The notes under the pieces were generated by a model. It ran no database searches and was not told the origin of the DNA. It was given only the letters and a program-made list of their open reading frames with translations. A program made the position numbers and the translations under genes. From Procambarus clarkii (taxonomy: Eukaryota; Arthropoda; Malacostraca; Decapoda; Cambaridae), in assembly GCF_040958095.1 (NCBI RefSeq), contig NC_091165.1:28869378-28933377 (forward strand): a stretch of 64,000 nucleotides of DNA, in the 5' to 3' direction. This document shows, in pieces, positions 9,319-62,290 of this stretch; position 1 is the stretch's first letter, and the number at the start of each line of letters is the position of its first letter.

Positions 9319-12300
9319 TCACGAGGCAGGAGAGACAGGAGACGAAGCCCTCTGGATGTGGTGGAGGCGTGCAGCGACCAGCTCCAGGCCCAGCACCATC
9401 AGACCCACCACATCACCAACAGGAGACGAGGCCCTCTGGGTGTGGTGGAGGCGTGTAGCGACCAGCTCCAGGCCCAGCACCATCAGACCCACCACGTCAC
9501 CAACAACACAGAACACAAACATTCCCTGCAGTTAAAAAACCATCTTAATACGGTGTAAACTGCCAATTATCCTAACCTTCAATCTGGGAAATGCACACAC
9601 ACACACACACACACACAATCAGGTGGTAATCTCTCTGTAACTCTTGTTAATTAAGAGTATCAAGGTTGCCACTTTAATAAATCACTGATTTCCTGTGATA
9701 AAACAACAACAATTAAGCTTTGAAGTTATTAAACTTCTTGTTAGAAAAGCTTACTAGACTGCCTTACTGTATCTCTGATGTGTCCCGGAATGTGTGACTG
9801 AGTGTCTTAGATCCGTCCGAGTGTGTAACCGACTGGAATTGCCTGTCTATGGCTGTCCCTCTGTCTGTGTGCATCTTGATATGACTGACTATCTGCATAT
9901 GACTGTGCTTAATAAGCTGCATTGTTCTCCATGCTCGGGGCTTTTAGATGAGCACGTATTAAAAGGACTAACTGTGCTGTTGGAATAGCTAAATCTCTTT
10001 TCTCTGCTTACTATCTAAATATGTTTTAGTTACTTATATAATATTCACCGTAACATTTTTATTCTGGAGTTCCCAGAGACTAGTAAAATGACCACACTTG
10101 CAGTATACACGAATGTGATATATAAGCAATAGGCTTCCACATAGAACTGAGTGGTAGACAAGAGTATACAATGCTGTACTTTTGAAGTGCAGGGAGAGGG
10201 GGTGAAAAAAGGGAGAGGGGCTTATCTTCCATAGTGTAGTAATGTTGATGTGGTATAAGCCTTACCCAGACGTTGGTGAGTGAGAGGGAAGTCCTGACGG
10301 TGATCTTAGAAGGTGGGTGAACACACACTGTTGAGTTCCTGTTGAGGCTCCTCATCCAGAACTCGTACAGCCCGGCCTCTGTCATCCACCTGATTCTGAA
10401 ACACTCCGCATGTTCACCGACTGTCTCGCTTCATGCACGTCGGCGTTCAATCCCCGATCGTCCAAGTGGTTGGGCATCATTCCTTTCCCCTCGTCCCATC
10501 TCAAATTCTTATCCTGACCCTTGTCAAGTTCTATATAGTCGTAATGGCTTGGCGCTTTCTCCCGACAATTCCCTCCGTATGTTGACTGGTATTTTGCGTT
10601 ACAGAGATATTTTGTATCTCTCTCAGATATATAGAAGTGATATTCCTACCATGTCTGAATTTTGTGTAGGCATAGTAACATTTTCGAACATTGAGAAATT
10701 ACTCAAATATTTCATGAATTAAAAACAAAAACGACTAAAGTATTTTTTTTAAGCTTGTTTCAAACAACAACAATATCCTGAAACAATCTAGTGCTATCAC
10801 TCCTATTATCCCATAACCTGTTCCGTTAATCTGTAAACACACGCCTATCTGTCTCCTACCCAACAATGCGCACGTACCTCCTGCTTATACCCAACAATGC
10901 GCACGTACCTCCTGCTTATACCCAACAATGCGCACGTACCTCCTGCTTATACCCAACAATGCGCACATACCTCCTGCTTATAGAAGGGATAAGAGGGCTG
11001 GTCTTGGGTCCGATCATGCAGTACAAGAAGGACATAAACGCCTCTCGCGAAGTGTAGAAGTCACACCGACCTGTTGAAGCCAAGAGTTAAGGGGTGCACT
11101 GATCAGGATAACTATGATCATCAAAGCTATCAGGATTAGCCTTTTGCAGTTTAATATACAACTTAGGTGTGATTTTAAAGTGTAAATGTAAAACGTAAGT
11201 AGTTAAGCAGAGACTAAGTCATAATAACAGTTTAAATAACCAAACTCTACACATGTATGAAATGAAAGTAACGACGTTTCAGTCCATCCTGGACCCTTAT
11301 AAAATCGTGTCACTACGAGACAAGAGCCCAGGATGACCCCCAACCCCACCACTCTCCTTTCATACCTGTAGGAGTGGAGTATTAAGTACTCAAGGCTCGC
11401 CATAGGAGATACCGGTTTTAGAGAAATCTTGACCCGCGAGGACTTTGATGGTCAAGCCCTCGCCCACGAAGGCGTATGGTCCCTCCCGTACCAAATGGTC
11501 CAGCATGGTCGAGTACTCCGTCGCCAGCAGGTACATGATGTGTCCGGCCTGGTCGATCTGGTGCACCTCGCGGAAAATCCCAGATTTAGACGTCTGTCAA
11601 ACAAATGTGGCAAAACTGATGAAGATATCCAACATTCTGGAGGTTGCGTTGTGTTACCCCTTAATGGAGACTGAAGATCGGTGAGGTCGGGAGGGGGACA
11701 GTGGCTTACCACCGACGTTCACAGAAGGTAAGGGCTTTGCCATGGACATAAAGACACGTCCGAAACGCTATGCGTGTCAGTGGCTTTGCAAGAATGTAAA
11801 AGCATCAATGTTAGGTGTGGTATATCATGCCCTAGTACCATCAATCTTGCTTCTATATTGTATGATGTATTCGTTATTTTCTAATTTTTCTTGAATTTTT
11901 CTTCTATTCTCTTTGACTCTTCTCCTCTCTAGTCCCTCCTCTCCCTCTCTTCTCCTTCTCCGCATTCCCTTCCTCTTTCACAAGCCCAATGTACCTTCTT
12001 GTGTATATAAATAATAATACAAAATCATGCAAATCATGCGAGGCCATTATTTAAGACAAAGGAGAATACAGCCTAGAAGTGAGGGAAATGTAAATATATT
12101 CCCTCACAAACCACACACACGCATGTATCTAAATAACTACCTATTGCAAAATGTGTTGATTATTAGATATACACAACACAGGTGGAAATATTAACTTTAA
12201 CATCTACCACTTTGATATATCTGGTACGCAAACTTTATAAACTTCAGGGTATCTAAGAACAACTAAAGGCTTACACGGAAATAATTGACGTAAGCAGTGT

Positions 12301-15300
12301 TGTACTCCCAGATCATGGTAGTGGAGGAGGAGGAGTCCAGGAGAGCCCGCAGGGTCTGGAAGGGCTGAGGGATGTACCTCACGGCCAACAGAGACATGAG
12401 ATTACCGGAGTAACTCTGCATCAACACCAGCATCATTAGCATCCAGCTGGCCAGCACCAGCCGCTCCCACCACCGCCCCGCCGGCACTGCCGTGTCTGTC
12501 AAAGGGGTTTTCACATGACTAAAAAATACATTTCGTCAGTACAATGAATGAAATTCACTATCACACGATAACTAATCTAATCCAGCGGTCGCCAACCTTT
12601 CGGACCTCAAGTCGATTTGAGAATGGTCCAGGACGGACCGAAACGTCGTCGTCCCTTGAACTTCTAGTGTGTGGTCTGGTCAACATTCTTCAGCCACGTT
12701 ATTGTGACTCATCGCCTGCTTTCGGACCTCACAGACAGTTATTAATCTCGAGGTTTAATTAACGCCTCCACAAAACATTACAGATCATCCAGCAAGTGTA
12801 ATTTAGTTCTAAACATAATTCAGAACTAAAGTTCACTGTTACACGGGATACACCTTTGCGTATAAACACCTTGGTCCATAATTTTGGTTTTTGACGCAAG
12901 TTTAAGCTTGCAGGAACAAAAAAATATATAACCCTCGGATGCTAACCCATTTCTGATGCATGATACCAAACTTACTTTTCTGTATCGTCATGCGAAAATA
13001 GATGGATAGCATTGGGGATCCGACGGAGAAGAACGATGCGAGCAGCAGGAGAGCGACCAGCACCACCAGGAGGGACCCCAACAGGGCTGCCCACACTTCA
13101 GGAGACAGGGGCAGCAGGAACCCCCACGGGTCCACCTCGGGCCGGCCCTGACCTCCAAGTATCCTAAGGGAGTCACTGACGACTGGTGCCGTGTAGTCTA
13201 CTATCTCGGCTCGTTCTGCCGTGATGCCAAATGGACCGAGTCCCAGGTCCACTTCCTAAAGCCACCAAAAATTACAATTATCATGTCGTATCCCAATGAA
13301 TAATGCACACATGGAGAAGTAATGCAATAGTGACCAAAGAGGAGAGCTTTATCTCATTGCTTGATCACCAATCTAAAAGATTATGCAGGCTACCAATGTT
13401 GTTCATATTGATATATTTCCCCTATTGTTTCAACATACATTGTAACAATGGGAATGACAACTGCCAATTTCTGACACCAATAGCGAGAACACAGTTTTTT
13501 TTGTGTGTTTTACACAAAATATTTCTGCTCTGAAAAAGAAAAATTATATATTCTTAAGGTTTTATTTGCTATCATGAGCCATTGTTAAAATAATTAAGAT
13601 CCAGAAGAGCTAAGTCTTATGGGCAGTATCAAGGAAATTTGCTTAGCTTTGCTGAACTGGTTTTAATGATACTATGGAATAAATGTGTGGATGTGAAATA
13701 CAGTGACGAATATAACCTCACGTTGAGGCATAAATATGCTCGATGTTTTTAACATAACTCACCTTCCTGCCCACCATGCCCAGTTACACACTCACCTTCC
13801 TGCCCACCATGCCCAGTTACCCTACTCACCTTCCTGCCCACCATACCCAGCTACACACTCACCTTCCTACTCACCATACCCAGCTACACACACTCACCTT
13901 CCTACCCACCATACCCAGCTACACACACTCACCTTCCTACCCAGCTACACACACTCACCTTCCTACTCACCATACCCAGCTACACACACTCACCTTCCTA
14001 CTCACCATACCCAGCTACCACACTCACCTTCCTACCCAGCTACACACACTCACCTTCCTACTCACCATACCCAGCTACACACACTCACCTTCCTACTCAC
14101 CATACCCAGCTACACACACTCACCTTCCTACTCACCATACCCAGCTACCACACTCACCTTCCTACCCACCATACCCAGCTACACACACTCACCTTCCTGC
14201 CCACCATACCCAGCTACCACACTCACCTTCCTGCCCACCATACCCAGCTACACACACTCACCTTCCTGCCCACCATACCCAGCTACCACACTCACCTTCC
14301 TACCCACCATACCCAGCTACACACACTCACCTTCCTACCCACCATACCCAGCTACACACACTCACCTTCCTGCCCACCATACCCAGCTACCCCACTCACC
14401 TTCCTGCCCACCATACCCGTCATGCCCGTCGCCGTGCCATTGGCCAGCTTGGTTCCAAACGACCCGTCAGGCGGCCGCACGATGGTAAAACTGTCAGGAA
14501 ATGTCTCAAGAAGAATTATGTTTCGTGACGAGTAGAAATAGTGTATTTTCTTATATTTCGAGCACCAATGTTTTACCTGGCATTACTGAAGCACAATTAA
14601 CTGTTGCAAGGTAAATATGCAATTACTGTGCCAACTGAATAACCACTGTAACATGTCCTTGTGAATAATGCAGAATTATTATACACAGAAATCACAATAG
14701 CGTGATGAATCAAATGATTCGAGGAATCGAATCCTCGTCACGGCCCTTGTGGATTTGTTCATTTCATGCAGGATTTTAATATTACTATTATTGACTCAAG
14801 AGTTTCATATCTTTGTCACACTTCCGTATCTTCAACACTGAGAAGTAGATTTGAATTTTAAAATGTTTGAATCAATTTATCCAACGAGTGAGAACACATG
14901 GTCAGATGCATTTCTTTACAATACTTGGAAGCATTAGTAATACAGACTGCCAAATGGTAATAATTATGTCATAAATTACCCCAAACACTAACAAAACTCA
15001 AGATGTTAGCATGAGACTAAATGCTAGCAAAATGTTTAACATGTTAAACTCGGTATGGCAACGAGTTAAAGACACCGCCATCATTGCATAATATAGACTA
15101 TAATATCAACTCTAATGAAAATAAATGGGCTATTTTTGGGGGGCTAATGTAATCCTTCCTAATTATGATTTGTATCATATATCAATATCTTTCAAATTTG
15201 AGAGTGCGAATTGGCTGGATAAAAACCTGGATTATGGTGATATATTTTACCTGAAGTTAAGAGAGCGACCAAGCAGCTGCAGGAGCTGAACCATGGCGCC

Positions 15301-18300
15301 GGAGAACTTGTACCTGTGGCCTAGACCCGTCTCCCTCACCTCCACGTGTGGAGGAAACTCTTCCGTCGTCAGCGACAGCGTTGGTCTCTCCGTGAACCTG
15401 GCGCGACACACCGCGTGAATGTTTATCTATCTACCCTGATGCAGATCCAAATCAAAAGACCACAGAGGGGAAGGCCCGGCAGTACCTCTCGTCCAAGGCT
15501 TTCACCCCGGTCCTTATACAGTGTGAAGTCTACAAGACGAGCATCAAAGAAAGTGCTCATCACGTCACAAACTTGGAATACGGTTATGCTAATGTGATTT
15601 AAAGGTAAAATCACCAAGCAGGATAGAAAGATGCTGGGACAATGTTGATTAGATGCGTACTTTGAGTAGGATGTAAAGTGAGTAGAATCCTGTGGCTTGC
15701 GATAGGGCTCGTGGAATGGTTATGTGATAAGGTCGGCAGTTGAGTGCCTCAGAGGGGTGCCGAGGGAAGGGGTGGATGTTGTCAAATGTTATGTATAATG
15801 TAAATTGTCATCCACACTTCCCCTGGAAAAATTCCCGTGTGAGAGTTTCGGCCTCACACGCGTGGGGTCCATGGTTCGAGTCTCCTAGAGCCCAGGTGAA
15901 TGGAATTAGGTGTAGTTTTTTTTTTTTTTTTAGATTCAGCTACTGGGAACAAAAGGTTCCATGCAGCACGGGTTATGGTGAGCCCGTAGTGGACTTACCT
16001 GGCACAGGAGCGGGGTTGTAACTTTGAGCACTGTAGGTATAATAACGGAGCTCAGGTTAAGGGCCGTTATCGATTTTTAAACTAAAAAAATACAGAATAA
16101 AATGCCAATTAAGCCAAGGAAGCCAAAGAAGACGCACACATTTTGATACTGCAAGGATGATTTTTTGGTTATCTATATTCAGGGGGGAGGGGGGGGGAGT
16201 GAAGGAATTGGCATCTCTTGTTAGGTATTGACCTGATTTCCCCATGTTAAAGAAAGTTCTACTGAAATTTAGGTCAAATAACCTTTCGGGAAAATCAAGA
16301 GATCTGACTTTTCAACAGAGATCTCAAGCGATACCGTTATTAGCTAAGCTCACTATTACAAGATTGCAGTCGATAATTTATTGTTCGCCTTCACAATAAG
16401 TAATTATAGTAGTATAATGAAACATGCACATAAAATAAGTCACAGTGACGTCAATGAAACAAATAACTTAATCCAAATATGTGTACTGAAAGTGACGAGA
16501 CGATTTTGCGTGTTAAGAACACACACACACACACACACCTTCACTACCGCCCTCAACCCACAGCTGCTAACAATGTTTGCGAGGCTGAGACCCACAAGTG
16601 TGCTACGATTAGCCAATAGGTTTCAGTTCAAGTGAACACTTTTTTCCCCAGGACAGTGTTGAAATAAGTAGTCACGAATACTACCAAGTCCACCACAACA
16701 ACGATAATCCCCGGACTCGAACTATAATTTATTGAAATGTATCGTTCTGGTCATACATATGGCCATTTCCGACACGAAACAAACACGCAGCATCAGAGGG
16801 AAGACTCGCCTGTAGAACTTCTCGGGGAAGAGCTGGAGGCTGGTGGTGAGGGAGAGGCCTCTGTGGGGCGTCCACTTGGCGACCTGCAACACTGTACTGC
16901 TGTACGGAACGTGCACCCACACGCTGCACCTGCACATGCAACAATCACCAACACAATCATTAAGTCGACCCGTGTTTCAACACACTCGACAGCAAGGCAA
17001 ATAAACACCACATTAATAAACAATTTATCCAATATCAATCGTCATTTTGTCATTAGGACTAACAAATCTGATTATTTTGTGGTGGTCGTATATGCTAACT
17101 AGTCCAAGTGGCACTTCTCAACCACGCTCAGTATATCCAGAGGTAATAAAGCTGTCCTGTCCAGGAACAATTAAACACGTGCAAATTTTGTGGTAGGAAG
17201 TGCCTGTACATATAACATGGAGGCTGGAGAAGTAATCATTTTTTTTGAGTGAATGTCCTTGCACGCATTTTGTGATACTCTACCAGATCACAGCGAGCTC
17301 AAAGGACCTATGGAATATATGTACTCACGTCGCCACCAGTGTATTGAGGTACTGGTTGCAGAAAGGTGTAACGATCTGGAGGCGGTGGCCAGGTAAGCAC
17401 CATGGCTGTTGTTCATTACCTGGAGGAGGCGTCCAGGATGAGCAACATGGTGGCTGGTCATTACCTGGAGGAGGCGTCCAGGATGAGCAACATGGCGTTC
17501 ATCATGGAGAAGGAAGTGTGGAGGTGACGGAGGTCAGAGAGAGGTCGGCGGGTGATGGCGAGCAACCTGTTGGCCCACAGCAGAAGGTGGCCCTTGATGG
17601 CCCACTCGGCTGAGGCGGCCAGGAAGGTCGGGTCGTCGCTCACCACCACCACCATCACCAACCACGACACCTGTCGCACCTGTCGAGAGGTCAGCCACAG
17701 GTTATATCGTCTGTCTGACAGCTGGTGTGGCTGTTGAGAAGACAAGAATGGAGGAAACTGACAGGAGGCCTACTGGTCCACTGAGACAATTACCATCGTT
17801 ATAGCTAATTCATATATTTGTCTACACCAGGGGGTTCGAAAACTGTATTCCCGTCTATTATGTTATCTGGCTACGTGTTAGTAATTCAACAAACCTATTA
17901 CAAAACTAGTTTTTTTAATCGAAAGATTTACAGTTTGTATCTATTAATTCGTGTTGTATCGATATCCCTTACAGTATAATTAATATTCGAGAGGTTTTCT
18001 TAAGCTGGATTATTTTTTTTACTTACCCAGACCATTACTAGTCTGGGGGTAGTTTACCTTGCGAGCTTGGGTGACGGCCCAGTACAGCTGCGCCTCCGTC
18101 AGATTGGTTAGGTTGCTGCTCTCTACTGCCACCTCAAACACCGTCATTCCCCAGGGCACGTCCAGCCGCCCTCCCAGCTCCTGAAGAGAAAATAATAAAC
18201 AGTGAAGCCTGTTTACGGCGGGAGTTGGCGATTTATGGTCACATGTTCAATACAATATGCCCGTGCTACCTCTTGGGTGGCTTAATCGTCATCAATCAAT

Positions 18301-19533
18301 CACAGGTGGAGCAGTAGTGTGGACGCACGGTGAAGACAGTGGAGGGGGAGGTGCTGCCATCTGTGAGGAGGATGACGGAGGAGCGCGGCCGCCACACTCT
18401 GGTCGCCACAGCCGCCACGCACCGCCCCGCCGCCCTCAGCGTCTCCTCTCCAACTGCTCGGCATGAAAAGATGGCTTTAAATAGTGCGACGAACAAGTTG
18501 GTGGCAGGGTTAAAGGAATTGACCAGAAAGAGCCAAACCAGTATAGCAAGAACCTAGTACAAGGGTCACTTGTAACATCGGGTGATCGAACAAAGACATG
18601 CAAGAAGCAAAACCAACGTTGCATCGACTAATCCAATTTTATGGAAACTATTTCTAATCAAATTTGCACGTAAACTAAGTCAAAAACAATTTGTATCGAT
18701 GTAGACGAAAGTTAGACTGCTATAAACATACGCAGCTGTTTGCTAATTTGTTGTGTGCATCTGATCTTATTTATAAAATGTTAGCCAGGTGACTGGCGCA
18801 GTCTTCCAAATTTACCAATTAAATAACTGACGGGATGGCGATTCTGTGAACGCACTGGCACACCCCCCCCTCTCCCTGGTAGATCTATGGAAAAAGACGT
18901 TAGTGTAACAAAGAATCTACATTGAAAACGTAGATCAAGACGTTACGGTAGCAAGCTTTGTCCGATGGTAGACGAGAAGGCAGATATATATTCTCTAGCC
19001 ATGAGGTATGTTCAGAGAGGAAAACGGGGCCAGAACGGGGCTCTGTGCTAGAAAAGGTTTACCCCTCTACTTCCTTTGGTAGAAAGGTGAAGTTCTTTGG
19101 CATAGTCACCTTGTTGCAATGGCTGCAAAGCGGCCTAAAGGCCTTAATGCAAGGCGATGTTTGAAGGAATAAATTAAACGTACTCGTCTTTCAGGTGGTG
19201 CTCTGATATAGAGCACCACGAACAGAACAGCACCTTTCTGTTCCTCGAGGCAACCCAATACACCAGTTTAGGCGTGTACGTATTTTGCCAAAATACGATG
19301 AGCTACTGCACTATCTGGTGCATGTACAAGCCACCAACTGGCCTACCGTGGCGACCTCTGATTATTGTTTGAATGCGTCTTACTACCAAGTAACTCCTGA
19401 GCTCAATATAACGACAATCTAGCACATCAACATAATGAAAATAGATTAACTTACCACGAAGATGAGGCAATCGGGCGACGGTGAGGCAAACTGTTGCAGT
19501 GAGGAACAGTAGCAGTGACGTTGCCATCGTCAT
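9319..19533 (-). CDS. Ionotropic receptor gene B, complete, 13 exons, 673 aa
   Basis: Likely chemosensory IR channel. Exons in transcript order: 19533-19455 (signal peptide MTMATSLLLFLTATVCLTVA), 18456-18329, 18180-18058, 17679-17465, 16929-16810, 15397-15251, 14490-14400, 13255-12976, 12495-12275, 11593-11413, 11070-10971, 10395-10266, 9525-9319. All phases fit, with a TGA stop. S1 has GPFGITAERAEIVDYT with the ligand Arg near residue 316; M1 about 355-377; M3 with SYSGNL about 406-432; S2 has LATEYST and the paired cysteines CDFY and NSTVC. The last exon codes for the final helix and then an in-frame copy of 28 residues (613-640 repeated as 641-668). Odd points: a GC donor after exon 5; donors of exons 4, 7 and 11 embedded in tandem repeats. 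Closest relative is C. No transcript evidence; the exon 4 acceptor could be 9 bases further in. Confidence 0.9.
9357..9524 (-). repeat. 84-bp in-frame tandem duplication inside the last exon of gene B
   Basis: Two copies of a 28-codon unit (start VGDVVGLMVLGLELVA, end QRASSP) lie head to tail in the terminal exon. They differ at only a few bases. The first copy forms most of the last membrane helix together with GMFVFCV; the second repeats its hydrophobic core. Confidence 0.95.
9597..9617. repeat. (CA)n microsatellite
   Basis: Perfect CA dinucleotide run in the last intron of gene B. Confidence 0.95.
10410..10590 (+). repeat. tRNA-headed SINE copy in an intron of gene B
   Basis: It contains a B-box-like GCGTTCAATCCCCGA followed by a conserved body (GTTGGGCATCATTCC, TATATAGTCGTAATGGC). 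Other copies are 53225-53390 (+) and 63045-63245 (-). Confidence 0.7.
10861..10985 (-). repeat. 31-bp minisatellite carrying the exon 11 splice donor of gene B, 4 copies
   Basis: Read on the - strand, each unit ends an exon-like TATAAGCAGGAG followed by the donor GTACGTGCG or GTATGTGCG. The copy at 10970/10971 is the true exon-intron border; three further donor copies lie downstream in the intron. A 31-base shift breaks the frame, so only the first donor keeps it. Confidence 0.9.
12598..12740 (-). repeat. Fold-back element family, single arm
   Basis: Carries GAATGGTCCAGGACGGACCG, the ACGTCGTCGTCCC core, GTGTGTGGTCTGGTCAACA and the GCCACGTTATTGTGACTC end. It is one arm of the element that is complete as an inverted repeat at 41687-41852 and 44758-44933. 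It lies in an intron of gene B. Confidence 0.85.
13760..14420 (-). repeat. Minisatellite of about 20 units carrying the exon 7 donor of gene B
   Basis: Units of mostly 35-36 bp (some shorter) read on the - strand as GGGTATGGTGGGCAGGAAG, then GTGAGTG and GTGTAGCT. The last unit at 14400-14420 is the real 3' end of exon 7 (GMVGRK followed by donor GTGAGT). Every other unit repeats both the exon end and a consensus-quality donor inside the intron. Open frames on the + strand through the array are a consequence of the repeat and not genes. Confidence 0.95.
14700..14780. repeat. Possible SINE fragment
   Basis: A B-box-like GAATCGAATCCTCGTCACGG precedes GGATTTGTTCATTTCATGCA, a block I recognise from decapod SINEs. 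It lies in intron 6 of gene B. A related motif is at 20625-20665. Confidence 0.4.
15825..15920 (+). repeat. tRNA-derived SINE head with poly-T border
   Basis: CCATGGTTCGAGTCTCCTAG followed by AGCCCAGGTGAATGGAATTAGG and a T16 run. A second, diverged copy is at 47135-47215. It is followed directly by a - strand copy of the 733-832 family (15940-16022). Confidence 0.6.
15940..16022 (-). repeat. Interspersed repeat, same family as 733-832
   Basis: Reverse-complement match: GATTCAGCTACTGGGAACA, GGTTATGGTGAGCCCGTAG and CCTGGCACAGGAGCGGGG. Intron of gene B. Confidence 0.7.
17411..17500 (-). repeat. 45-bp tandem duplication of the exon 4 donor of gene B, 2 copies
   Basis: On the - strand the unit is ATGTTGCTCATCCTGGACG, CCTCCTCCAG and then GTAATGACCAGCCACC. 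The donor at 17464/17465 ends the exon and one copy follows in the intron. The same 45-bp unit is expanded in genes C (6 donors) and D (4 donors). Reading through gives a stop at once (AGG TAA), so only the first donor makes protein. Confidence 0.9.
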
Positions 19534-23600: not shown

Positions 23601-23669
23601 CAATTTTCATAAAGTGATAATTATCGGTGTTTTTTGAAGATTGATAATTATCGGTGTTTTATCCAACAA

Positions 23670-24848: not shown

Positions 24849-25355
24849 TTATGAGTAAGTCGTGTACTGGGACTGGTCAGGAGGCCACAACATTGCACTA
24901 CTAGTAGAGTCCTGTTTAACGTCATCCACTGTCGAGTAATATTTGAACGCTGATCCAGTAGCAGGATGTCTCAATGCAAGGCGAAGCTCTGGGTTATTTT
25001 GAACGTGATTCACATTATCAGAATACGAGGGCAAGGCTTGGGTTACCCCGTCCTGGTATCGGACAAGACCTGAGTTTGAGATGCAGCAAGAATGGCAAGG
25101 GTCGTGATGTTGGGTAGTGGCTTGTTGGTCGGCCATGGTAGCCATGTTACATAGAAATAGTCGAGGCCGCCCACTGCGAGCTTTGTTCTCGACGCTGCCT
25201 TCTTGATACCACCGTCTGATCCACCTGTAGACAGTAGTCACACTCGCTCCTGTCTTCTGCGCAATCGTGCGAACTGGGAATCCGTCGACCCACATGCGGA
25301 TAAACACAGCGCGTTCTTCCACGCCCGTGGGTCGGAACTGGTGTTTCCCCATCAT
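24849..25355 (-). CDS. HTH1: transposase-type helix-turn-helix protein, 168 aa
   Basis: Single coding exon. Start chosen at the first ATG (MMGKHQFRPTG) because a splice acceptor TCCTCACAG sits 9 bases upstream, as in HTH2 and HTH3; a 5' leader exon is therefore likely. Residues about 5-62 form a paired/Tc1-transposase-like DNA-binding domain: ERAVFIRMWVDG, then VRTIAQKTGASVTTVYRWIR and ending RSGRPR (AT-hook-like). No DDE catalytic domain follows. The C-terminal 100 residues align with HTH2 (RYQDGV, PELRL, SAF, W-PDQSQ), so the whole protein looks constrained. Role unknown; a nuclear DNA-binding protein is inferred. It sits upstream of receptor gene B on the same strand. It could also be a remnant of a DNA transposon. 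Confidence 0.7.
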   Translation of the reverse strand: MMGKHQFRPTGVEERAVFIRMWVDGFPVRTIAQKTGASVTTVYRWIRRWYQEGSVENKARSGRPRLFLCNMATMADQQATTQHHDPCHSCCISNSGLVRYQDGVTQALPSYSDNVNHVQNNPELRLALRHPATGSAFKYYSTVDDVKQDSTSSAMLWPPDQSQYTTYS

Positions 25356-26501: not shown

Positions 26502-26915
26502 TTACACGTTAGAGCTTTCAGTGAACAGAAGTCCAGCTCCAGAGAGGATGATGATTGCGTCACAGTAAAGACAGACTGGATCCGGCTGGCGGGTTGATGG
26601 CCATAGTCTCCACGGTACTGACGCCTCCATCACCACCTTCCACACCTTTATTGTCTTCACTCGCAACAACCACCACACTAACTGTGCCCTCATTGGTCCA
26701 CGGTGAGCCAGGGACGCTGATTGGTTACCAGCTGCCTGTATACAACGTCGTGAGTGGCCCGGCAGTAGTCTGGTCGCCAGTCTGGTTGATGTTACTGGTT
26801 GGGGGGATGTTGATGCGCGCGCTTTGCCTATTTCCTCACAGTATACAGTGACTGCTTCATGCACTGTGATCATAGGAGCCTCGCTGGAGGAGTGGAAGCT
26901 TATTTATCTTTCATA
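26502..26915 (-). promoter_or_regulatory. Duplicated promoter-like segment upstream of HTH1, with two CCAAT boxes
   Basis: About 94% identical by eye to 39600-40005 upstream of HTH2. On the - strand it carries AACCAATCAGCG and GGACCAATGAGG about 30 bases apart, then CGAGTGAAGACAATAAAGG. A donor-like GTAAGG near 26505 could splice to the HTH1 acceptor at 25365. It also reads as an open frame, but base changes between the copies are mostly amino-acid-changing, which speaks against coding. Confidence 0.5.
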
Positions 26916-27300: not shown

Positions 27301-27947
27301 TGCGTAGTAGTGAGGACCATTTGTAGGGGTCGAACCTAGTATATGATTATGGTCCGTATTTGTGCTGGCCGGGGGAAAAAAGCGTCAAACATGATTGCCG
27401 AGCTGAGAAAGCAGGAGAAGGATATTGGGGCAAAACAATAAAACTTTTGAGATTTTTAATAATATATATATACTAGACATTGGTAACAAAGAGGAACACA
27501 AATATAATTGTACTCTAAAGATATAGTACATAAATAGTAAAAAAATATTATAACTAAAATGTATGAATTTAATGTTTTTGTGTAAATGGAGCCCCCAAAG
27601 TCTCTCGAACACGTAGTCAAGAACAAGTGTGAGTGTGGTTGACCTAGCCGGCCTTCCTAAGCTTCCCCAACGTCAAAAAACTGTTGTACTAAAGTGCCCT
27701 TATCCTAACTTACCAGAGAAGGTATCCAAAACTGAAAACAGAACAGTATATCAATTTCACGAGCCGCTGACATTTTCTATAACACGTTTTAGGCTTTAGC
27801 TGAAGTATTCGTCAATATGCGACGTTCTATTAGGAGGACGAGTTGGTTGACCAACGTGGGGGTTGGACATGGATGGTTTTGAAAGCAGACGAAGACCTCT
27901 GGCAGTGGAGGAGATCACGAAGACTGGAAACCAGGAGACGAAGACCA
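27301..27947. other. Spacer downstream of gene C
   Basis: 3' flank of gene C. AT-rich; no clear AATAAA on the - strand close to the stop codon and no gene seen. Confidence 0.5.
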
Positions 27948-30900
27948 CTAGGTGTGGAAGCGTGTGGCGATCAGCTCGAAGCACAGCGCCACCAAACCCA
28001 TCAGATACCCAACACCACAGATCACAAACATTCCCTGTAGTTAACATACCATCATCATCATTATATTTTGAATGTTATAACTGAAATAGATGAGTGTAGT
28101 ACTCTTGAGTGCACAGAAGCAATAAATATTATCGCAATCTCAATCAATTATCACATGGATGAATGTACCCAAAGCTAGAGAATATTGGGTTGTTGTTGTT
28201 GTCTGCATATTGTATATATTTTATAATGAATACAACGGCAGTATAGCACAGCATTACCCAGACGTTGGACAGCGCGAGAGGGGATCTGACGGTGATCTTG
28301 GAGGGAGGGTACAGACACACAGTCGAATTTATCTTCAGGCTCTTCATCCAGTACTCGTAGAGTCCAAACTCCTTTATCCAGGTAATTCTGTGATTCACAT
28401 GAGCTGGATTAGTTTAGATGTCTTAAATTAATGCCGTTTTTATTTAGCTGTAACTAGGTAGCGTGGTGTTCCGTAGCTCTATAGTGCCGGATCGTCTAAA
28501 CGAGCTTACATGTGCTATAAAATTAGTGGGTTGGATGAATGTATATATTTCTGGCATGAGTGTGCGTATTACCGGCATCTCACATTTTGTATTAAGCTTT
28601 TATTATTGTGTATACATTATATAAGTATATATATATATATAATGTATGTGTGTGTATGCTCACCTCCGACTTATAGAAGGCACTAGAGGACTGGTCTTCG
28701 CTCCTATCATGCAGTACTGGAATGGCATAAACCTCTCCCTCGACGTGTAGAAGTCACACCGACCTATGGGAGTCGGGGGAGACGGTCTCAAGATACACTC
28801 GAGATGAAAGAGTACACCTATTATCATCATGGAAAAGGTCTTTCTATTTCTAGGAAATAGAAAGAACTCTATTTCCAGACCTAGGTTTGGAAATAGAGTG
28901 GTTAACCTATTGAATAAATCAACAGGTATATGATAAAATAAACAGATATTGTGAGATATCCATAATATCAATAACTTTAAGATATATATATTATAACATA
29001 TTTTTATAGCCACCCAATCTCGTAACATAATAAATATATGAGTTTGGGTGGGTATAAACAGGAGCTGGCTCGTGTTATACTATATGCCTTCTGCAGTTAC
29101 CTTGATTCTTATGTTCCAGTTCGCTTTAATCGCTACCAATCCTATTATGATTAATACTTATAAGAAGAACTGGCTTCCTGAAACCAAACCTAATTCCTGT
29201 TGAAATCAGATTCTGAGACGTGAATTATGGGGTCATATTGTTCATCACAGAATTTGTAGATGAAAAGTTTTGCTTGAATATTTCAATAATGTTTACATAT
29301 TATGAGTCACAGAACAATTAGAGATATTAACTTCAATCTCTCTTTATGTATTTTAAGTTATAATTTTCCGTCATTATATGTACAAGTGTAATTTTATGAT
29401 ACATGTATTAAATAAGCAAATGCGTAAGTCAATACAAATTTATTAACTTGTATTGATTTTCTTGTTATTAATTTTATTTTTATCATTAAAAAACTAAGCT
29501 TTACAACTTTGGGCATTAATAATGTACTGAATAAGCACCTGTTTGAGAAAAGTCCTGAGCCTTGAGAACTTTGATAGTAAGGTCCTCGCCGACGTAGACA
29601 AATGGACCCTTTCGTACCCTATCGTCCAACATGGTCTGATACTCCGTAGCCAAGACGTAGGCGATACGCCCTGCTTGCTCCGATTCCCGCACCTCCAGGA
29701 AGATCCCGGATCTTGACATCTTGAGCAAAAATTGAGAGGAAAAAACTGATGAAGTTATCTACATGGTGAAGACCAGGCATATGTAGACAAGTTAATCGTA
29801 ACGTCTCGGAAATTGGAGAAAGAAAGGGGAGGAGAAAGTCACAGTGAGGGAGGTAGAGAGGTGGAAGGGAGGAGTGAGAAAGCGTGGTTAGGAGAAAGGG
29901 AAAGTTTAAAATTGAGAGAGAAAGAATGAGAGAATGGAGGAATGTAAAATGAGTAGAACGTGGTAGAAATGTAGGCTTACGTCAAAGCTGTCTGACGCCC
30001 CATTGATTGTTCAGTACGTCAAGAATGTGTGATGTTCCCCAGATTGTTCAGTACGTCAAGAATGTGAGGTGTTCTGATTGTTCACTACGTCAAGAATGTG
30101 AGGTGTTCTGATTGTTCAGTACGTCAAGAATGTGTAGTGTTCTGATTGTTCAGTATACCACACATTCACTCACAACTAGATGAGTACATTATGAAGAAAA
30201 GACTTACACGAAAGTAACTGACATAGGCCGTGTTGTACTCCCAGATCATGGTAGTGGAGGAGGAGTCCAGGAGAGCCCGCAGGGTCTGGAAGGGCTGAGG
30301 GATGTACCTCACGGCCAACAGAGACATGAGGTTACCAGAGTAACTCTGCGTCACCACCAGCATCATCAGCATCCAGCTGGCCAGCACCAGCCGCTCCCAC
30401 CACCGCCCGGGCGGCATTGTCGTGTCTGAGGACAAGAGGCCAGATTCACGAAAGCACTTACGAATGTGTACATCTTTTCTCAATCTTTGACGGCTTTGGT
30501 TACATCTATTAAACGGTTTACAAGCATGAAAACTTCCCATTCAACTGTTGTTATTGTTATAAACAGCCTCCTGGTGCTTCGGAGCTCATTAACTATTTAA
30601 TAATTGGAAACAAAGCCGCGAAAGATTGAGAAAAGATGTACAGGTTCGTAAGTGCTTGCGAATGTGCTTTCGTGAATCTGGCCCAAGGTTTGTTTATATT
30701 TTGAACTAAATGGCCGTACGCAGAAAATGTACAATTATGCGTATACAAACACACACACACACAATAGTAAATGAAAAAAGTAATATGGCTCAGATTGCGA
30801 TGATTGAATCAATGCTTCAGAAAAGGCAGCATGAGAGAACAGCCTGGCATGCTGTAGTGAGCGTTGTTCATGAACCCTGGTACAGCATAGGCTACAAGAA

Positions 30901-33900
30901 AACAAAAAAAAATTAACCTTTAGATGTCTGAATTATAGTAAGAAATGTATTCCCATATTCTTAATTCCAAAACAATAACAAATATTTGTTGTTTACTCTT
31001 TCTTCTTTGCATGTAATGGCAAAGACAACATTCGTCTCTTTCAAGGGTTGGTTTGGTGTTGGGCTTAAATGATTCTCAACCTCAAGATGTTGTTAAAGCA
31101 ACCACAATAGCTTACTGATCAAGCAGTAAGTATGCTTCAGCTCTCAACATAATCGAGGACTAAGGTACATATCTCTACTCACAATCTTGTTTTCGAGATG
31201 CTTATTTTATCACCCATAATCAGTGTTTTGACCCACATAATGTGCCTTGTGTATCTTGATTTAGCTGAGTTGCCAGAAGCGCCACGTACCATTGGTCTCA
31301 CAGTCAATAATCTACATACTGTCATATTAACAAAACTAAACTCACTCTTCTGTAGCGTCATGCGAAAGTAAATGGAGAAGTCGAACTCTTCGGGGGAGAA
31401 GAAGGAGAGCAGGAAGAGAGCGACCAGCACCACCAGGAAGGACCCCAACAGGGCCGCCCACACTACAGGAGACAGTGGCAGCAGGAACCCCCACGGGTCC
31501 ACCTCGGGTCGGCCCTGACCTCCAAGGATCCTCAGAGAGTCACTGACGATCGATACCGTGTAGTCTATGATCTCGGCTCGTTCTGCCGTGACTCCGAACG
31601 GACCAACGCCCACGTCAACCTCCTGAAGGCATGTAAACACTTGGGGTTCACTTTAGCTTCCGAATGATATAATGAAAAGGTTGAAGATGAAGGAACGTCC
31701 CAATATATGTGGACGTTTATTAAAACCCAAATTTTCGGATGTACGTCTACCTTCTTTCTCAAGGTACTGTACACAATGTTTAGCATTATAGTGTGAGAAC
31801 ATTGTATACAGCACCTTGAGAAAGGATGTAGGTTCCGTCCGAAAAATGTGGTTTTTAATGCACTTACACATATATTGGGTCGTTCCTTCACCTTCATTCA
31901 AGCACTACGGATTTGTAATAAGTTTCTCAATGAAAAAGTTATTATGCTGGAAGAACCAAGTGAACAAGGACAAAGACTATTAATGATCAATAAATGAACC
32001 AAGCATAATCAGACCCAGTAGCTGGATTAAGCCCTAATAATATCTCTACTTGTTCCAGTATTTACGGCAATAGTAGTAGTAGGCATCCATCAGTCTCAGG
32101 AGACTATGGAGTTGCGCTCTGGTTGTCGGTCTGGAGTGGTCTCTCCAGGGCTCAAAGCCAGGATAAGTTGATTCGGGGGAGAAGCTGTTACCCAGGCAGC
32201 AGGTCCCCCCTCTCCACGACGCTGAAAGTCTCCAATGGAAAGGCATACGCCAATACGATTGGTTTAACCACTTCAATGTCTCCCTTCGCGGGTCTGAGAT
32301 GGATTGCACCAATGACTGTCACACTACAACATTCGAGGACACTAGTGTGACGTTATCCAGGTCATGTCTAATGTTAAGGGGGTAACTCCCTTGGTCTCGC
32401 GTAGTACACCTCCTGCAGTGGCTTACATCTTCCCAGCTGCGCCCCTCTCACCTTCCTGGCCACCAAGCCCACCATCCCCGTCTCCGTCCCGTTGGCCAGC
32501 TTGGTCCCGAACGACCCGTCAGGTGGCGGCACAACGGTGAAGCTGCTGGTGATGTGACGGTAAGTGTCTGTCTCATGACATGGGGGGGGGGACAGATGTT
32601 TATCATGTTATGTAAAGTTTTAGGGGACAAGTACATCCAAGGTGAAATGTTAACTTTTTTTTTAAGAAGTGGCACTACATTAGCAGCCTTCCATGCTTCT
32701 GGAGCAACTCCACAGCTATTAAATTAATAGTTTGAGAAAAGGTCTTTGCGACATTCTTGGTACTATATTATACAATGAACTAATGTTGTTTGTTACTACC
32801 TTACCTGAAGTTGAGGGAGCGGCCAAGCAGCTGGAGGACCTGGATCATGGAGCCGGTGAAGATGTACCTCTGGCCGGCTGTACCAGACTCCTCCCTCATC
32901 TCCACGTGCGGCGGGAACTCCGTCGCCGTCATCTTCAGCGTCGGTCTTTCCAGAAACCTGATGAAGCACACAGATTCAACACACCTCTCGCCAGGTTACC
33001 CACCTTACGCAGCACACCTCCATCAACTATATAATAATTAACACTATATAATACTGAGCAAAACGCATTAGACTCAATATAGTAGTAAGATCAGATATCG
33101 CAAAATAATATTTTAACTTCCTAACCAAGTTATGAAGAAGCAAAGGTTAATGCCAGAAGCATGGAAGTAGTCTAACTCTTTCGGTCACATATAATAACAC
33201 ACCAAAATATAACTGTCACGAAATAAACAGGCAGCATCAGAGGGAAGACTCGCCTGTAGAACTTCTCGGGGAAGAGCTGGAGGCTGGTGGTGAGGGAGAG
33301 GCCTCTGTGGGGCGTCCACTTGGCGACCTGCAACACTGTACTGCTGTACGGGACGTGCACCCACACGCTGCACCTGCACATGCAACAATCACCAACACAA
33401 TCATTAAGTCGACCCGTGTTTCAACACACTCGACAGCAAGGCAAATAAACACCACATTAATAAACAATTTATCCAATATCAATCGTCAGTTTGTCATTAG
33501 GACTCTTAACAAACCTTAGGCCTGATTATTTTGTGCTGGTCGTATGTGCGATCTAGTCCAAGTGGCACTTCCTAGTGGACCTATGAAATATTTGTATCAA
33601 AGTCGCCACAGGATGAGCAACATGGTGGCTGGTCATTACCTGGAGGAGGCGTCCAGGATGAGCAACATGGTGGCTGGTCATTACCTGGAGGAGGCGTCCA
33701 GGATGAGCAACATGGTGGCTGGTCATTACCTGGAGGAGGCGTCCAGGATGAGCAACATGGTGGCTGGTCATTACCTGGAGGAGGCGTCCAGGATGAGCAA
33801 CATGGTGGCTGGTCATTACCTGGAGGAGGCGTCCAGGATGAGCAACATGGTGGCTGGTCATTACCTGGAGGAGGCGTCCAGGATGAGCAACATGGCGTTC

Positions 33901-36589: not shown

Positions 36590-37165
36590 AGTGACACCCT
36601 GGGGGAGGAGGGATAGTTCCGACACACCCTGGGGGAGGAGGGATGGTTCCGACACACCCTGGGGGAGGAGGGATGGTTCCGACACACCCTGGAGGAGGAG
36701 GGATGGTTCCGACACACCCTGGGGGAGGAGGGATGGTTCCGACACACCCTGGAGGAGGAGGGATGGTTCCGACACACCCTGGGGGAGGAGGGATGGTTCC
36801 GACACACCCTGGGGGAGGAGGGATGGTTCCGACACACCCTGGAGGAGGAGGGATGGTTCCGACACACCCTGGGGGAGGAGGGATGGTTCCGACACATCCT
36901 GGGGGAGAAGGGATGGTTCTGACACACCATGTAGGAGGAGGGATGGTTCCGACACATCCTGGAGGAGAAGGGATGGTTCCGACACACCCTGGAGGAGAAG
37001 GGATGGTTCTGACACACCATGTAGGAGGAGGGATGGTTCCGACACATCCTGGGGGAGGAGGGATGGTTCCGACACACCCTGGGGGAGGGGATAATTCCGA
37101 CACACCCTGGGGGGGGGGGAGGGATAGTTCTGACACATCCTGGGGAGGAGGAGGAGGTAGGGCAG
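36590..37165. repeat. 30-bp G-rich minisatellite, about 18 copies
   Basis: Unit GGGATGGTTCCGACACACCC plus TGGGGGAGGA. The G-runs on the + strand could form quadruplexes; this is inference from the sequence. Confidence 0.95.
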
Positions 37166-38593: not shown

Positions 38594-39193
38594 TCAACAC
38601 ATAGACAAGGAAACATTTGCCTGAATTGTTCTGTCAATATTTTCGTGTACAAAGAACTGTGTTTGGTTTGGCGACCAAAACACACTGGCACCCAGAGAGT
38701 CCTGGGTCACGCGGTGCCTGGCGTCGTTCAGAGGCACACAATCTCTGAAAGCTGATTTGGGGGAACTTTGACCTCGTGTTAACCGAAATTCCTGATTGCT
38801 TTCAAAGGGATTCAGAGAGTCCATATACACCGGTTGGCAGCTATTTACTCCATCCTGGCAACGGATCAGGCTTGGGTTCCGGGCGTAGCGGGAATGGGTG
38901 GAGTGGGCGTCGTTGTGTATGGGTGTGGGCGGGTGGCCTGTGCAGGCTTGCCGGTTGCAGGCGGCGGCGGCCGCAGCATTCCGGTTCCGGAGGGAGAGTC
39001 GGGGCCTTCCGCTACGAGCTCTGTTTTCTACGTTGCCTTCCTGTTGCCACCGTCTAATCCACCTGTAGACAGTCGTCACGCTTTTGCCCGTCTGCTGTGC
39101 GATCCTACGAACCGACTGCCCGTCGACCCACATGCGGACAAATCCAGCGCGCTCGCGAACGCCCGTCGGACGGAACTGTTGTTGCCTCATCAT
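38594..39193 (-). CDS. HTH2: transposase-type helix-turn-helix protein, 199 aa
   Basis: Closest relative of HTH1. Starts MMRQQQFRPTG, 7 bases after an acceptor-like ATCTTCACAG. DNA-binding region about 5-62: ERAGFVRMWVDG, VRRIAQQTGKSVTTVYRWIR, then RSGRPR. An alanine run follows (about 74-80) and a C-terminus sharing RCQDGV, EFRL, SAF and W-PNQTQ with HTH1, then an extension ending SLSMC. No DDE nuclease part. Upstream lies a duplicated CCAAT segment (39600-40005). Gene C lies downstream on the same strand, so HTH2 to C mirrors HTH1 to B. Function not known; a DNA-binding regulator is inferred from the domain alone. Confidence 0.7.
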   Translation of the reverse strand: MMRQQQFRPTGVRERAGFVRMWVDGQSVRRIAQQTGKSVTTVYRWIRRWQQEGNVENRARSGRPRLSLRNRNAAAAAACNRQACTGHPPTPIHNDAHSTHSRYARNPSLIRCQDGVNSCQPVYMDSLNPFESNQEFRLTRGQSSPKSAFRDCVPLNDARHRVTQDSLGASVFWSPNQTQFFVHENIDRTIQANVSLSMC

Positions 39194-39599: not shown

Positions 39600-40005
39600 A
39601 TGTCCAGTGAACACTCACAAAAGTCCAGCTCCAGGGAGGGGTGAGGATGGCGTCACAGTTAAGACAGACTGGACCCGACTGACGGGTTGATGGCCATAGT
39701 CTCCACGGTACTGACGCCTCCATCACCACCTTCCACACCTTTATTGTCCTCACTCGCAACAACCACCACACTAACTGTGCCCTCATTGGTCCACGCTGAG
39801 CCAGGAACGCTGATTGGTTGGCAGCTGCCTGTATACAACGTCGTGAGTGGCCGGGCAGTAGTCTAGTCGGCAGCCTGGTTGATGTTACTGGTTGGGGGGA
39901 TGTTGATGCGCGCGCTTGGCCTATTTCCTCACAGTATACAGTGACTGCTTCATGCACTGTGATCATAGGAGCCTCGCTGGAGGAGTGGAAGCTTATTTAT
40001 CTTTT
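39600..40005 (-). promoter_or_regulatory. Duplicated promoter-like segment upstream of HTH2
   Basis: Paralog of 26502-26915, with two CCAAT boxes on the - strand (AACCAATCAGCG and GGACCAATGAGG). A donor-like TTTTGTGAGTG near 39615 could end a leader exon about 420 bases upstream of the coding-exon acceptor. Confidence 0.5.
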
Positions 40006-40841
40006 ATATGACTTCATAAACACTTTATACTGAGCGGTTATGTGGTGTTCCAGTCGCTGTTCGGAAGTTGCTGGAGGAGGACTAGAGAGGGGGAGGCAGA
40101 TGATATAGAAAAGGAAGTTTGGAGTAAAGACATCAGCAGGGAAATAAGGAACATGGGGGGTTTTGATACTTACAATATTGTATGGAGCTGCAAAATTTGC
40201 ATAGCAAATATTAAACATTTATCCATAACACCAATAGCCATGATTATTATTATTATATAAAATGGTATAATTATGTTGTTAATATTAAAGTACTACACAT
40301 GAGCCATGTTCCTTTACATACAGTCCACTAATAGTGGGGGGTGATGGTTGGATGGGGAAGTTTTGAAGAATGGGGAGGGTGTGGGGGATGCAGGGGTGGT
40401 GGGGAAACACGATAATAAATACTAATGGTGCCCATACCTTGTACACACGACCAACACATGAAAACAGTTAAAAATTCAGATAATTGTTTTGGTTGAAAAT
40501 TGAAATTCAGATATGCATATTCTACACTCCATGTATTAATCTTTCAATTTCCATTGGCATGTATCTAACTACATGAATACCTAACCTATCCCATAAACAT
40601 GACCCTCCAATCGGTTTACAACCATGTCACCCGTTACCGCTGGATGAGCCTGGATGCCCACATCAATCCTACCTGTCAGGGCTGGAACTCACCGAAATCG
40701 ATCTCAAGCCACGGGGCTCCACGGGTTAAGATTACACATGAATACGAGTTTATATAACAAATAAAAAATTATAAAATGTATTGTTAAATTAATAAGTAAA
40801 TGCTAATTATAAAATATTTAATAATAGCTTGATTTATAATA

Positions 40842-40982
40842 AAAATCTCCACGGTACTGACGCCTCCACCACCTCAATGGTGAGCCATCACCATGACGCC
40901 TCAATGGTGAGCCAGGGACGGTGATTGGTTGGCAGCTGCCAGTATACAGCGTCTTGAGTGGCCCGGCAGTAGTCTGATAACA
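40842..40982 (-). promoter_or_regulatory. Third, shortened copy of the promoter-like segment
   Basis: CTCCACGGTACTGACGCCTCC, GTGAGCCAGGGACGGTGATT and GGCCCGGCAGTAGTCTG are in the same order as in 26502-26915 and 39600-40005, with an internal deletion. One CCAAT box (ATTGGTTGG on +) remains. No HTH exon follows before HTH2. Confidence 0.5.
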
Positions 40983-42623: not shown

Positions 42624-55237
<12,614 letters not shown>

Positions 55238-59047: not shown

Positions 59048-59461
59048 TTAAAGTGGTGTCTGTATGCTCCAAGCTAAGTTCCGATTTGTAGTTTGGTTTG
59101 AGTAGATTCGCACAGTCGGTAAAGGAGAGAGTGCGTAAAAACTCTCCTTTCTCGCTGGAAACTCGCTTGTAAGCGAATCAGGTGGGGCATAAACCCGCAG
59201 GGAGGTAGGAGCGTCCATAGCGTTGGCGGGAACACTCGAGGGGTTCATCATCCTTGGCGCACTGGAGGGGATAATTGTACGATGCCTTGAGCCATAAACG
59301 TTGCCGTCTCGCTGCCACCGCCTTATCCACCTGTAGATGGTAGATACACTGGTCTTTGTCCTCAACGCTATGTCGCGCACAGATATGCCGTCAATCCACA
59401 TGAATATGATCTTCACACGGTCATCTACAGCAGTTGGTCTGAATGTTCGACCACCTGCCAT
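59048..59461 (-). CDS. HTH3: transposase-type helix-turn-helix protein, 137 aa
   Basis: Starts MAGGRTFRPTA, 7 bases after an acceptor-like TCTCATACAG, so a 5' leader exon is likely as in HTH1 and HTH2. Residues about 7-60 carry the same DNA-binding fold: DDRVKIIFMWIDG, VRDIALRTKTSVSTIYRWIR, then RWQRDG. The SGRPR end is replaced by GSRHRT. The C-terminus is shorter and shows only a weak match (SNQTT, LAWS) to HTH2. More distant from HTH1/HTH2 than these are from each other, as D is from B/C. Upstream of gene D on the same strand. Function unknown. Confidence 0.65.
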   Translation of the reverse strand: MAGGRTFRPTAVDDRVKIIFMWIDGISVRDIALRTKTSVSTIYRWIRRWQRDGNVYGSRHRTIIPSSAPRMMNPSSVPANAMDAPTSLRVYAPPDSLTSEFPARKESFYALSPLPTVRIYSNQTTNRNLAWSIQTPL

Positions 59462-59814: not shown

Positions 59815-59935
59815 ATGTCACTAGTAGTGTAAAGTAGGACTGGAACCATTCCCTTTTGAGGATGACTTGATAATGGTCTAGGACGCAACAAAACTTCTTC
59901 GCTTCTCCAACTTTTGAGTTGTGATTTGGTCATTA
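59815..59935. repeat. Old, diverged fold-back arm
   Basis: GAATGGT-like, TAATGGTCTAGGACGCAACA and TTGTGATTTGGTCATTA keep the order of the 41687 family with many changes. Confidence 0.5.
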
Positions 59936-60324: not shown

Positions 60325-60405
60325 AGGAATCTGGGTGGATATAAATAGCAGCTGTCTAGTGTGGGTCTTCTGCCATTTCATTAAATCTTACGTTCATGTA
60401 AGGCA
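60325..60405 (+). repeat. Interspersed repeat, same family as 29040-29125
   Basis: GGATATAAATAGCAGCTGTC, GGGTCTTCTGCCATTTC and TTACGTTCATGTAAG. Confidence 0.6.
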
Positions 60406-61279: not shown

Positions 61280-61845
61280 ATTTAGGGAACCGCTACTGTA
61301 CCACGCCGGGTACAGAGAACCACTGACTACTGTACCACAACGGGTATAGAGAACCACTGAATACTGTACCACAACGGGTACAGAGAACCGATGACTACTG
61401 TACCACAACGGGTACAGAGAACCGATGACTACTGTACCACAACGGGTACAGAGAACCGATGACTACTGTACCACAACGGGTACAGAGAACCGCTGACTAC
61501 TGTACCACAACGGGTACAGAGAACCGCTGACTACTGTACCACAACGGATACAGAGAACCACTGACTATTGTATCACAACGGGTACAGAGAACCACTGACT
61601 ACTGTACCACAACGGGTATAGAGAACCACTGAATACTGTACCACAACGGGTACAGAGAACCGATGACTACTGTACCACAACGGGTAGAGAACCGATGACT
61701 ACTGTACCACAACGGGTACAGAGAACCGATGACTACTGTACCACAACGGGTACAGAGAACCGCTGACTACTGTACCACAACGGATACAGAGAACCACCGA
61801 CTATTGTACCACAACGGGTACAGGGAAAACTGACCCCTGTACCGC
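61280..61845. repeat. About 34-bp minisatellite, about 16 copies
   Basis: Unit ACTGTACCACAACGGGTACA plus GAGAACCGATGACT; a larger internal block seems duplicated (variants recur in the same order). Part of the presumed HTH3 5' intron. Confidence 0.95.
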
Positions 61846-62164
61846 AACACGTTCAGGGAACACACAGTGGCTTTGAAACGTCTAGGAAAAAATTATGAAA
61901 AATATAAAAACTGAGTTAAATTGAACACAATTACTAAAATAAATACAACATGGTCTAGCACCACCCTACTGGTTCACAACGCCCCGGAACCTGTTGGGCA
62001 CGCTGAAAACAGCCTAAAAAAAAGGCAATTAAGACTAAAAAAGTATATGATAATATTCACCACTATGGCAAGAGATCAGGTGTAATGAGTCTGAGGAGAG
62101 GTGAACAGCACAGCGTCCAGCCCCTTACTGAAACCAGAAACACCAGCTGTGCCTTTTATGTACT

Positions 62165-62290
62165 CGCATAACAACACCATCTTCTCAAACTCTTTTTTCC
62201 ATTGGTCGACAGCGGCTGCTCGAAGCCGCGATTGGTCACAAAGTAGTGATTAGCTATTGGTTAGCGCGAGGATCATCAACTCTTGGGTGT
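62165..62290 (-). promoter_or_regulatory. CCAAT-rich candidate promoter for HTH3
   Basis: Three CCAAT boxes on the - strand (GACCAATGG, GACCAATCG, AACCAATAG, within about 60 bases). No other gene is near on this strand. Inference from motif clustering and from the CCAAT pairs upstream of HTH1 and HTH2. Confidence 0.35.

Follow-up and report, generated by a model that had tools for sequence, protein, structure and literature searches.

Small helix-turn-helix genes are paired and co-duplicated with ionotropic receptor genes in Procambarus clarkii

We analysed a 64,000-nucleotide stretch of the Procambarus clarkii genome (contig C16, positions 28869378-28933377; hereafter the window), in which small genes encoding helix-turn-helix (HTH) proteins lie beside ionotropic receptor (IR) genes. 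A search of the whole assembly (4.03 Gb, 2308 contigs) extended this observation far beyond the window and confirmed that HTH and IR genes are paired far beyond chance, and the combined results give good support to an ancient two-gene unit, HTH plus IR, that was duplicated as a whole. In keeping with a decapod-like crustacean, the assembly contains 9 matches to the crustacean neurohormone family PF01147, which also has insect members; 5 of the 9 form one tandem group. Pairing, orientation, co-divergence, open reading frames and purifying selection on the HTH core were all shown in this one genome. On balance, we lean towards a reading of these sequences in which the HTH gene and a tuning-type IR gene would have been kept together through action of the HTH protein on its own receptor gene.

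Each IR gene of the window has an HTH gene at its 5' side

Three HTH genes lie on the minus strand. The coding exon of HTH1 (24849..25355, 168 amino acids) encodes an HTH_23-type domain, a RSGRPR stretch and a faster-evolving tail, and those of HTH2 (38594..39193) and HTH3 (59048..59461) encode 199 and 137 amino acids. Pfam identified the HTH_23 domain in all three open frames, with E-values of 1.4e-10, 1.1e-11 and 2.6e-10, respectively. The exons start at about 25364, 39200 and 59468, after the apparent acceptors CTCACAG, TTCACAG and CATACAG. As an earlier note on this DNA had claimed, the coding exons begin 7-9 bases after an acceptor: a pyrimidine-rich AG precedes the ATG by 9 bases in HTH1 and by 7 in both HTH2 and HTH3.

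The IR exons, located by protein comparison between modules, define four genes. IR-B (9420..19533, minus strand) has about 13 exons, a signal-peptide ATG at 19533, a TM3 exon at 12499-12266 and a last matched exon at about 9544-9420. The corresponding features of IR-C (27932..35712, minus strand) are at 35712, 30429-30199 and about 28053-27932, and those of IR-D (42640..55237, minus strand) are at 55237, 46845-46606 and about 42761-42640. IR-A, on the plus strand, is partial in the window (1..6686), with a putative signal-peptide ATG at -1857. All four genes, and a further unit on contig C4, have a hydrophobic first exon, a putative signal peptide, with a GTAAG or GTAAA donor at its end. Taken singly, the exons are similar to Lig_chan or Lig_chan-Glu_bd; among the window IR exons tested, only the IR-C TM3 exon passed its Pfam cut-off (Lig_chan, 35.4 bits against a cut-off of 30.8), with the IR-D TM3 exon just below it at 30.2 bits. 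The S1-type exons of all four genes matched PF10613 weakly, below cut-off (E 0.0015-0.02).

Frames, domains and IR exons thus bear out the pairs HTH1-B, HTH2-C and HTH3-D that the earlier note had described, each on the minus strand with the HTH gene upstream. Its view of their relationships also held: HTH1 and HTH2 are the closest HTH proteins (53% identity, compared with 33% for HTH1 and HTH3), B and C are the closest receptors, and HTH3 and D are more distant. TM3-exon identity to IR-C is 91% for B, 72% for A and 59% for D, and in a TM3-exon tree the window IRs form one clade (99/88) that contains B+C (100/92) and, more weakly, A+D (99/71). Divergent IR copies are numerous in the genome of this one species.

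If the unit is real, IR-A should have an HTH gene of its own at its 5' side, beyond the window. We found such a gene, HTH0 (C16:28865212-28865541, plus strand, locus L039), about 4.2 kb to the left of the window edge (gene at about -4165 to -3710) and co-oriented with IR-A. A co-oriented 5' HTH gene is therefore present for all four IR genes of the locus.

HTH genes occur with IR genes throughout the genome

Protein queries returned 150, 8 and 2 HTH genes and a Pfam HTH_23 search added six, giving at least 166 members on 21 contigs. Among 150 HTH_23 hits, 142 were also matched by the family queries; of the other eight, three in IR clusters were kept and five were set aside, a choice that favours linkage slightly. 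IR genes were marked by 150 scored Lig_chan matches out of 424 candidates and by 118 matches to the IR-C TM3 exon, which together identify 199 places (69 shared). Both HTH and IR counts are lower bounds, and near-identical copies, which possibly include assembly duplicates, were all retained.

A scored IR channel exon lies within 1 Mb of 156 of the 166 counted HTH genes and within 500 kb of 132, and the HTH genes near IRs are spread over 19 contigs. Using Pfam queries that are independent of the window, we found a Lig_chan match within 500 kb of 86 of the 150 scored HTH_23 matches, where 3.7 would be expected. The association is concentrated in the receptor subclade of the window: an HTH gene lies within 500 kb of 98 of the 118 subclade matches but of only 10 of the 81 other Lig_chan matches.

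Seven of those ten belong to a second, distinct IR group that is partly linked, accompanied by HTH proteins of its own type (C53 at 7.1-7.3 Mb, C28 at 27.3 and 41.2 Mb, C32 at 9.67 Mb and C76 at 3.09 Mb). Twenty-two of its 29 matches were tested. Eight lie in HTH clusters, six of these with a same-strand HTH gene 5' within 500 kb, and the other 14 have no HTH gene within 16 Mb upstream. Tandem IR groups on C24 (37-41 Mb), C50 (16-19 Mb) and C83 (13 Mb) have no HTH gene, among those listed, within 1 Mb and form a natural comparison set.

The HTH gene mostly precedes the receptor gene on the same strand

We recorded the neighbours of 110 subclade IRs, the 118 TM3-exon matches less eight weak ones. 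Going upstream, the first element encountered is a same-strand HTH gene in 80 cases and an opposite-strand HTH gene in five. With strands assigned at random, the number of same-strand upstream HTH genes averaged 33.6 and never exceeded 45 (1000 runs). Going downstream from the same IRs, the first element is an HTH gene on the same strand in 43 cases and on the opposite strand in seven. Same-strand neighbours in the order HTH then IR number 90, compared with a mean of 46.6 and a maximum of 62 when labels were shuffled within contigs (5000 shuffles). Further, in all six isolated groups of one HTH and one IR gene the HTH gene is 5' and co-oriented, two of these (on C25) being near-identical copies.

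HTH and IR genes have diverged together

The 90 exclusive pairs include 82 with both sequences; 81 entered the distance tests (one IR had fewer than 45 amino acids) and 80 the tree. Distances between HTH cores correlate with those between IR TM3 exons (Mantel r 0.54, 81 units), and none of 2000 permutations gave so high a value, the best being 0.19. The HTH tail also tracks the receptor (r 0.43, 81 units; 0 of 2000 permutations as high). In the 44 units that have another unit downstream, each IR paired with its own upstream HTH gene gave r 0.54, and paired with the next downstream HTH gene 0.27 (the two values are compared descriptively). With the own pairing, r was 0.37 among units on different contigs (110-column HTH alignment, no permutation). 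The nearest relative by IR is also the nearest by HTH in 30 of 81 units, or in 10 of 81 when units on the same contig are excluded. Because related units are not independent, the correlation shows co-divergence and not the number of events.

In the TM3-exon tree (72 columns from a single exon, with a long-branch warning), the linked label changes seven times, three of them forced by starred branches, compared with 22 changes after shuffling. One side of the tree holds 75 linked and five unlinked IRs and the other five linked and 19 unlinked, the unlinked rows being hand-chosen.

Taken together, we conclude that the co-duplication of a two-gene unit proposed in the earlier note is well supported. 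That note had named two outcomes that would speak against it, HTH copies scattered without bias towards IR genes and unrelated branching of HTH and IR trees. We observed neither: the copies lie overwhelmingly near IR exons and the distances are correlated.

Purifying selection on the HTH core

In the domain, HTH1 and HTH2 differ with nonsynonymous divergence (dN) of 0.136 and synonymous divergence (dS) of 1.09; in the tail, dN is 0.57 and dS 2.1, a saturated value. From these values both look coding and constrained. Across 51 paralogue pairs, which are not independent, median omega was 0.39 in the core and 0.60 in the tail, and core omega was below 0.5 in 34 pairs. The matched part is free of stops in 146 of 150 HTH matches, whose open frames span 66-405 amino acids, mostly 90-240. 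We conclude that purifying selection acts on the core.

Among 90 members, the core residues S38, T41, V42, R44, W45, R48 and W49 are nearly invariant (HTH2 numbering), whereas position 43 (C/F/Y/R) and position 47 (R/H/K/N/Q) vary. By analogy, we take these two positions to face DNA from the presumed recognition helix. Three members outside the window matched HTH_23 with E-values of 3.4e-12 to 8.2e-9. The best Pfam models are HTH_23/28/29, HTH_SB being weak, and neither the window HTH frames (137-199 amino acids) nor six further members scanned contain a DDE/D catalytic or other further Pfam domain. The PAX profile did not match the window proteins, and one member of another subgroup matched it below cut-off (E 0.0064). 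The PDB match 2lvs_A (E 3e-4) covers the HTH only, PHROGs gave weak matches only (best 1.3e-4), and IMG/VR held no relative of HTH2 at E 1e-3.

The HTH gene probably has a spliced untranslated leader

In 76 of 82 units a pyrimidine-rich AG stands no more than 15 bp upstream of the HTH ATG, compared with 35% of random upstream positions; the commonest distance is 4 bp (41 of 82 units). This enrichment suggests that an untranslated leader spliced to a single HTH coding exon is probably general across the units. Poly(A) signals are slightly enriched downstream of the HTH stop: 17 of 25 cases have one within 300 bp, against a mean of 12.4 after shuffling (p 0.03).

Between the HTH stop and the signal ATG of the receptor lie 1.9 kb in A, 5.3 kb in B, 2.9 kb in C and 3.8 kb in D. 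The C4 unit has the same order, with the HTH ATG at 30604121, the IR signal ATG at 30617552 (13.0 kb past the HTH stop) and further IR exons that extend past 30638426. In the units read, we rejected the HTH exon as the first coding exon of the receptor, since the HTH frame ends in a stop and the receptor begins with a signal exon of its own.

Two non-coding blocks on the minus strand precede HTH1 and HTH2. The first, of 391 bp (26525..26915), lies about 1.2 kb upstream of the HTH1 ATG and contains two CCAAT motifs, which makes it a candidate promoter or leader; the second, of 392 bp (39617..40008), lies about 0.4 kb upstream of the HTH2 ATG. They are 94.6% identical, compared with 78% for the coding exons, which could be explained by gene conversion or by a conserved promoter. 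We rejected a dispersed repeat, as the search of the assembly found the two complete copies and a single 71-bp fragment, the latter also 5' of HTH2 (40906..40976, minus strand).

Why the unit has been kept together

Under the reading that we favour, the unit would consist of a small HTH gene, with a leader and one coding exon, upstream of a co-oriented tuning-type IR gene. The HTH protein, which has one Tc1/paired-type HTH domain and a fast-evolving tail, would be a nuclear DNA-binding factor acting on the IR gene of its own unit or class. Most likely it would regulate a particular locus or receptor class in the neuron expressing the IR, for example in feedback that stabilises or restricts receptor choice. 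A regulatory link seems preferable to us, since a gene that stood beside the receptor neutrally ought in many cases to have decayed or been separated from it. A more specific version, which we put forward tentatively, is a distributed receptor-choice code, in which each class of tuning IR would come under self-reinforcing or mutually exclusive control through an adjacent, co-diversifying HTH regulator. Variable positions 43 and 47 would then give class-specific control, and regulators would multiply in step with receptors.

Several results weigh against a regulatory link. Among the 166 counted HTH genes, ten have no scored IR within 1 Mb, and six well-matched subclade IRs have no HTH gene within 1 Mb among those listed. 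Thirty of the 110 subclade IRs lack a direct same-strand HTH gene at their 5' side: 14 have nothing within 500 kb, 11 have another IR and five the opposite-strand HTH genes given above. Same-strand neighbours in the order IR then HTH also number 50, as expected of an alternating array. The distance from the HTH gene to the TM3 exon is large (median 177 kb, 90 pairs), and the HTH gene was seen close to the IR start only in the window units and, at 13 kb, in the C4 unit. Long introns and repeats probably account for these distances, as could be read in that one unit outside the window. The HTH tail is weakly constrained, with omega above 1 in 12 of 51 pairs, and no short motif shared 5' or 3' of the HTH genes exceeded the simulated maximum (24 loci, low-complexity words excluded). 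Finally, the evidence comes from a single genome.

The alternative that survives best, although we think it rather doubtful, is passive linkage: an HTH gene that stood beside an IR gene before the IR radiation would have been carried along by segmental duplication while serving an unrelated function, such as genome defence or general chromatin. Co-duplication alone would yield both linkage and co-divergence, and the large distances, the loosely constrained tail and the 30 exceptional IRs fit this explanation. However, pairing, strand and order have been kept on 19 contigs and between units whose IR exons are 30-50% identical, and the HTH frames are open, where decay or separation would be the likely fate of a neutral neighbour.

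We consider it improbable that the two genes share a transcription unit, with the HTH exon lying within the 5' part of the IR unit and one promoter giving either HTH or IR mRNA, or an mRNA with two frames. The nested cholinergic locus is a precedent for one promoter giving alternative mRNAs. The acceptor-like sites before the HTH exons would suit such an arrangement, as would those that we picked by eye in the five units read, 20-132 bp upstream of the receptor's signal ATG, and so would the near-identical non-coding block 5' of the HTH1 and HTH2 exons. Five units chosen by eye are, however, too few to establish IR acceptors; the poly(A)-signal enrichment after the HTH stop, though slight, is as expected of a separate mRNA, and inspection by eye of the 75 bases that follow the HTH core revealed no common splice donor at 29 of 30 loci (the core end was not found in L014).

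Transposase N-termini of a mobile element inserting near IR genes would be very improbable, and we rejected a mobile element as the main explanation: the domain does resemble transposase HTHs in its Pfam matches, but no DDE domain was seen in the window proteins or in six further members, the frames are short, and the copies, instead of being scattered, accompany IR genes in common strand and order and are under purifying selection.

Relation to known systems

The HTH proteins share with domesticated Tc1/mariner and paired-type transposase DNA-binding domains a lone HTH, which fits the pattern W..G.S.R.IA...G.S..TV.RWI.RW, and an RSGRPR stretch that some members carry. Unlike these, the family has at least 166 members, mostly beside receptor genes, and no DDE domain was seen. 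Linked regulator-target pairs in gene clusters are likewise duplicated as a unit. We know of no such pair that involves a chemoreceptor family at comparable copy number, and of no receptor-choice system in which each receptor gene has a regulator of its own encoded next to it. For the question of how crustacean neurons choose among hundreds of tuning IRs, a DNA-binding family paired and co-duplicated with receptors is a concrete candidate that can be tested for each gene individually. Were the linkage passive, the pairs kept in strand order, at least 80-90 on 19 contigs, would still be an unusual conserved gene order.

Decapod tuning IRs, for example in Panulirus argus, form large, divergent, lineage-specific sets (PMC7067487, PMC7510291), and lobster olfactory sensory neurons strongly express one to a few of them (PMC7510291). 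In O. oratoria, tuning IRs occur in tandem groups (PMC11939437). Vertebrate olfactory receptor choice (for example PMC10765522) likewise involves a large family with few members strongly expressed per neuron. Like the decapod tuning IRs, the IRs of the P. clarkii unit form a large divergent set, with a putative signal peptide, a channel part and a candidate ligand-binding part. A term check of the literature brought up no linked DNA-binding gene: the main texts of PMC7067487, PMC13372173 and PMC11939437 contain no occurrence of 'helix-turn', 'HTH' or 'transposase', and that of PMC7510291 none of 'helix', 'homeodomain', 'transposase' or 'transcription factor'. In the open-licence PubMed Central literature we found no description of an HTH-IR unit in decapods or crustaceans; looking for IRs together with domesticated transposases led to one review, on human transposable elements.

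Other features of the window

In B, C and D, some N-terminal IR exons and the intron sequence adjoining them share 92-99.7% of their DNA sequence, with A as close in protein (17376-17727, 33775-34126 and 51309-51659; 18301-18472, 34588-34759 and 53669-53844; 16773-17117 and 33217-33571). The S1-type ligand-binding exons are 70-83% identical. Near-identical N-terminal exons beside diverged S1-type exons suggest patchy gene conversion or recent exchange.

A 45-bp unit that contains the exon end GCCTCCTCCAG and the adjoining splice donor GTAATGA occurs in tandem, with six copies in IR-C, four in D and two each in B and A (33655-33880, 51279-51414 and 17435-17480 on the minus strand, and near positions 9563-9608 of L039 on the plus strand). 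Because the unit holds a splice donor, the tandem copies are multiplied 5' splice sites.

A repeated sequence with a long frame is found in the window at 7072-8394 and 53924-54815 and, on the reverse strand, in the right flank (L040). A Pfam scan of it gave no match at E 0.1, and it probably belongs to a repeat element. Short units are arrayed in tandem at 13757-14418, 36594-37151 and 61293-61861.

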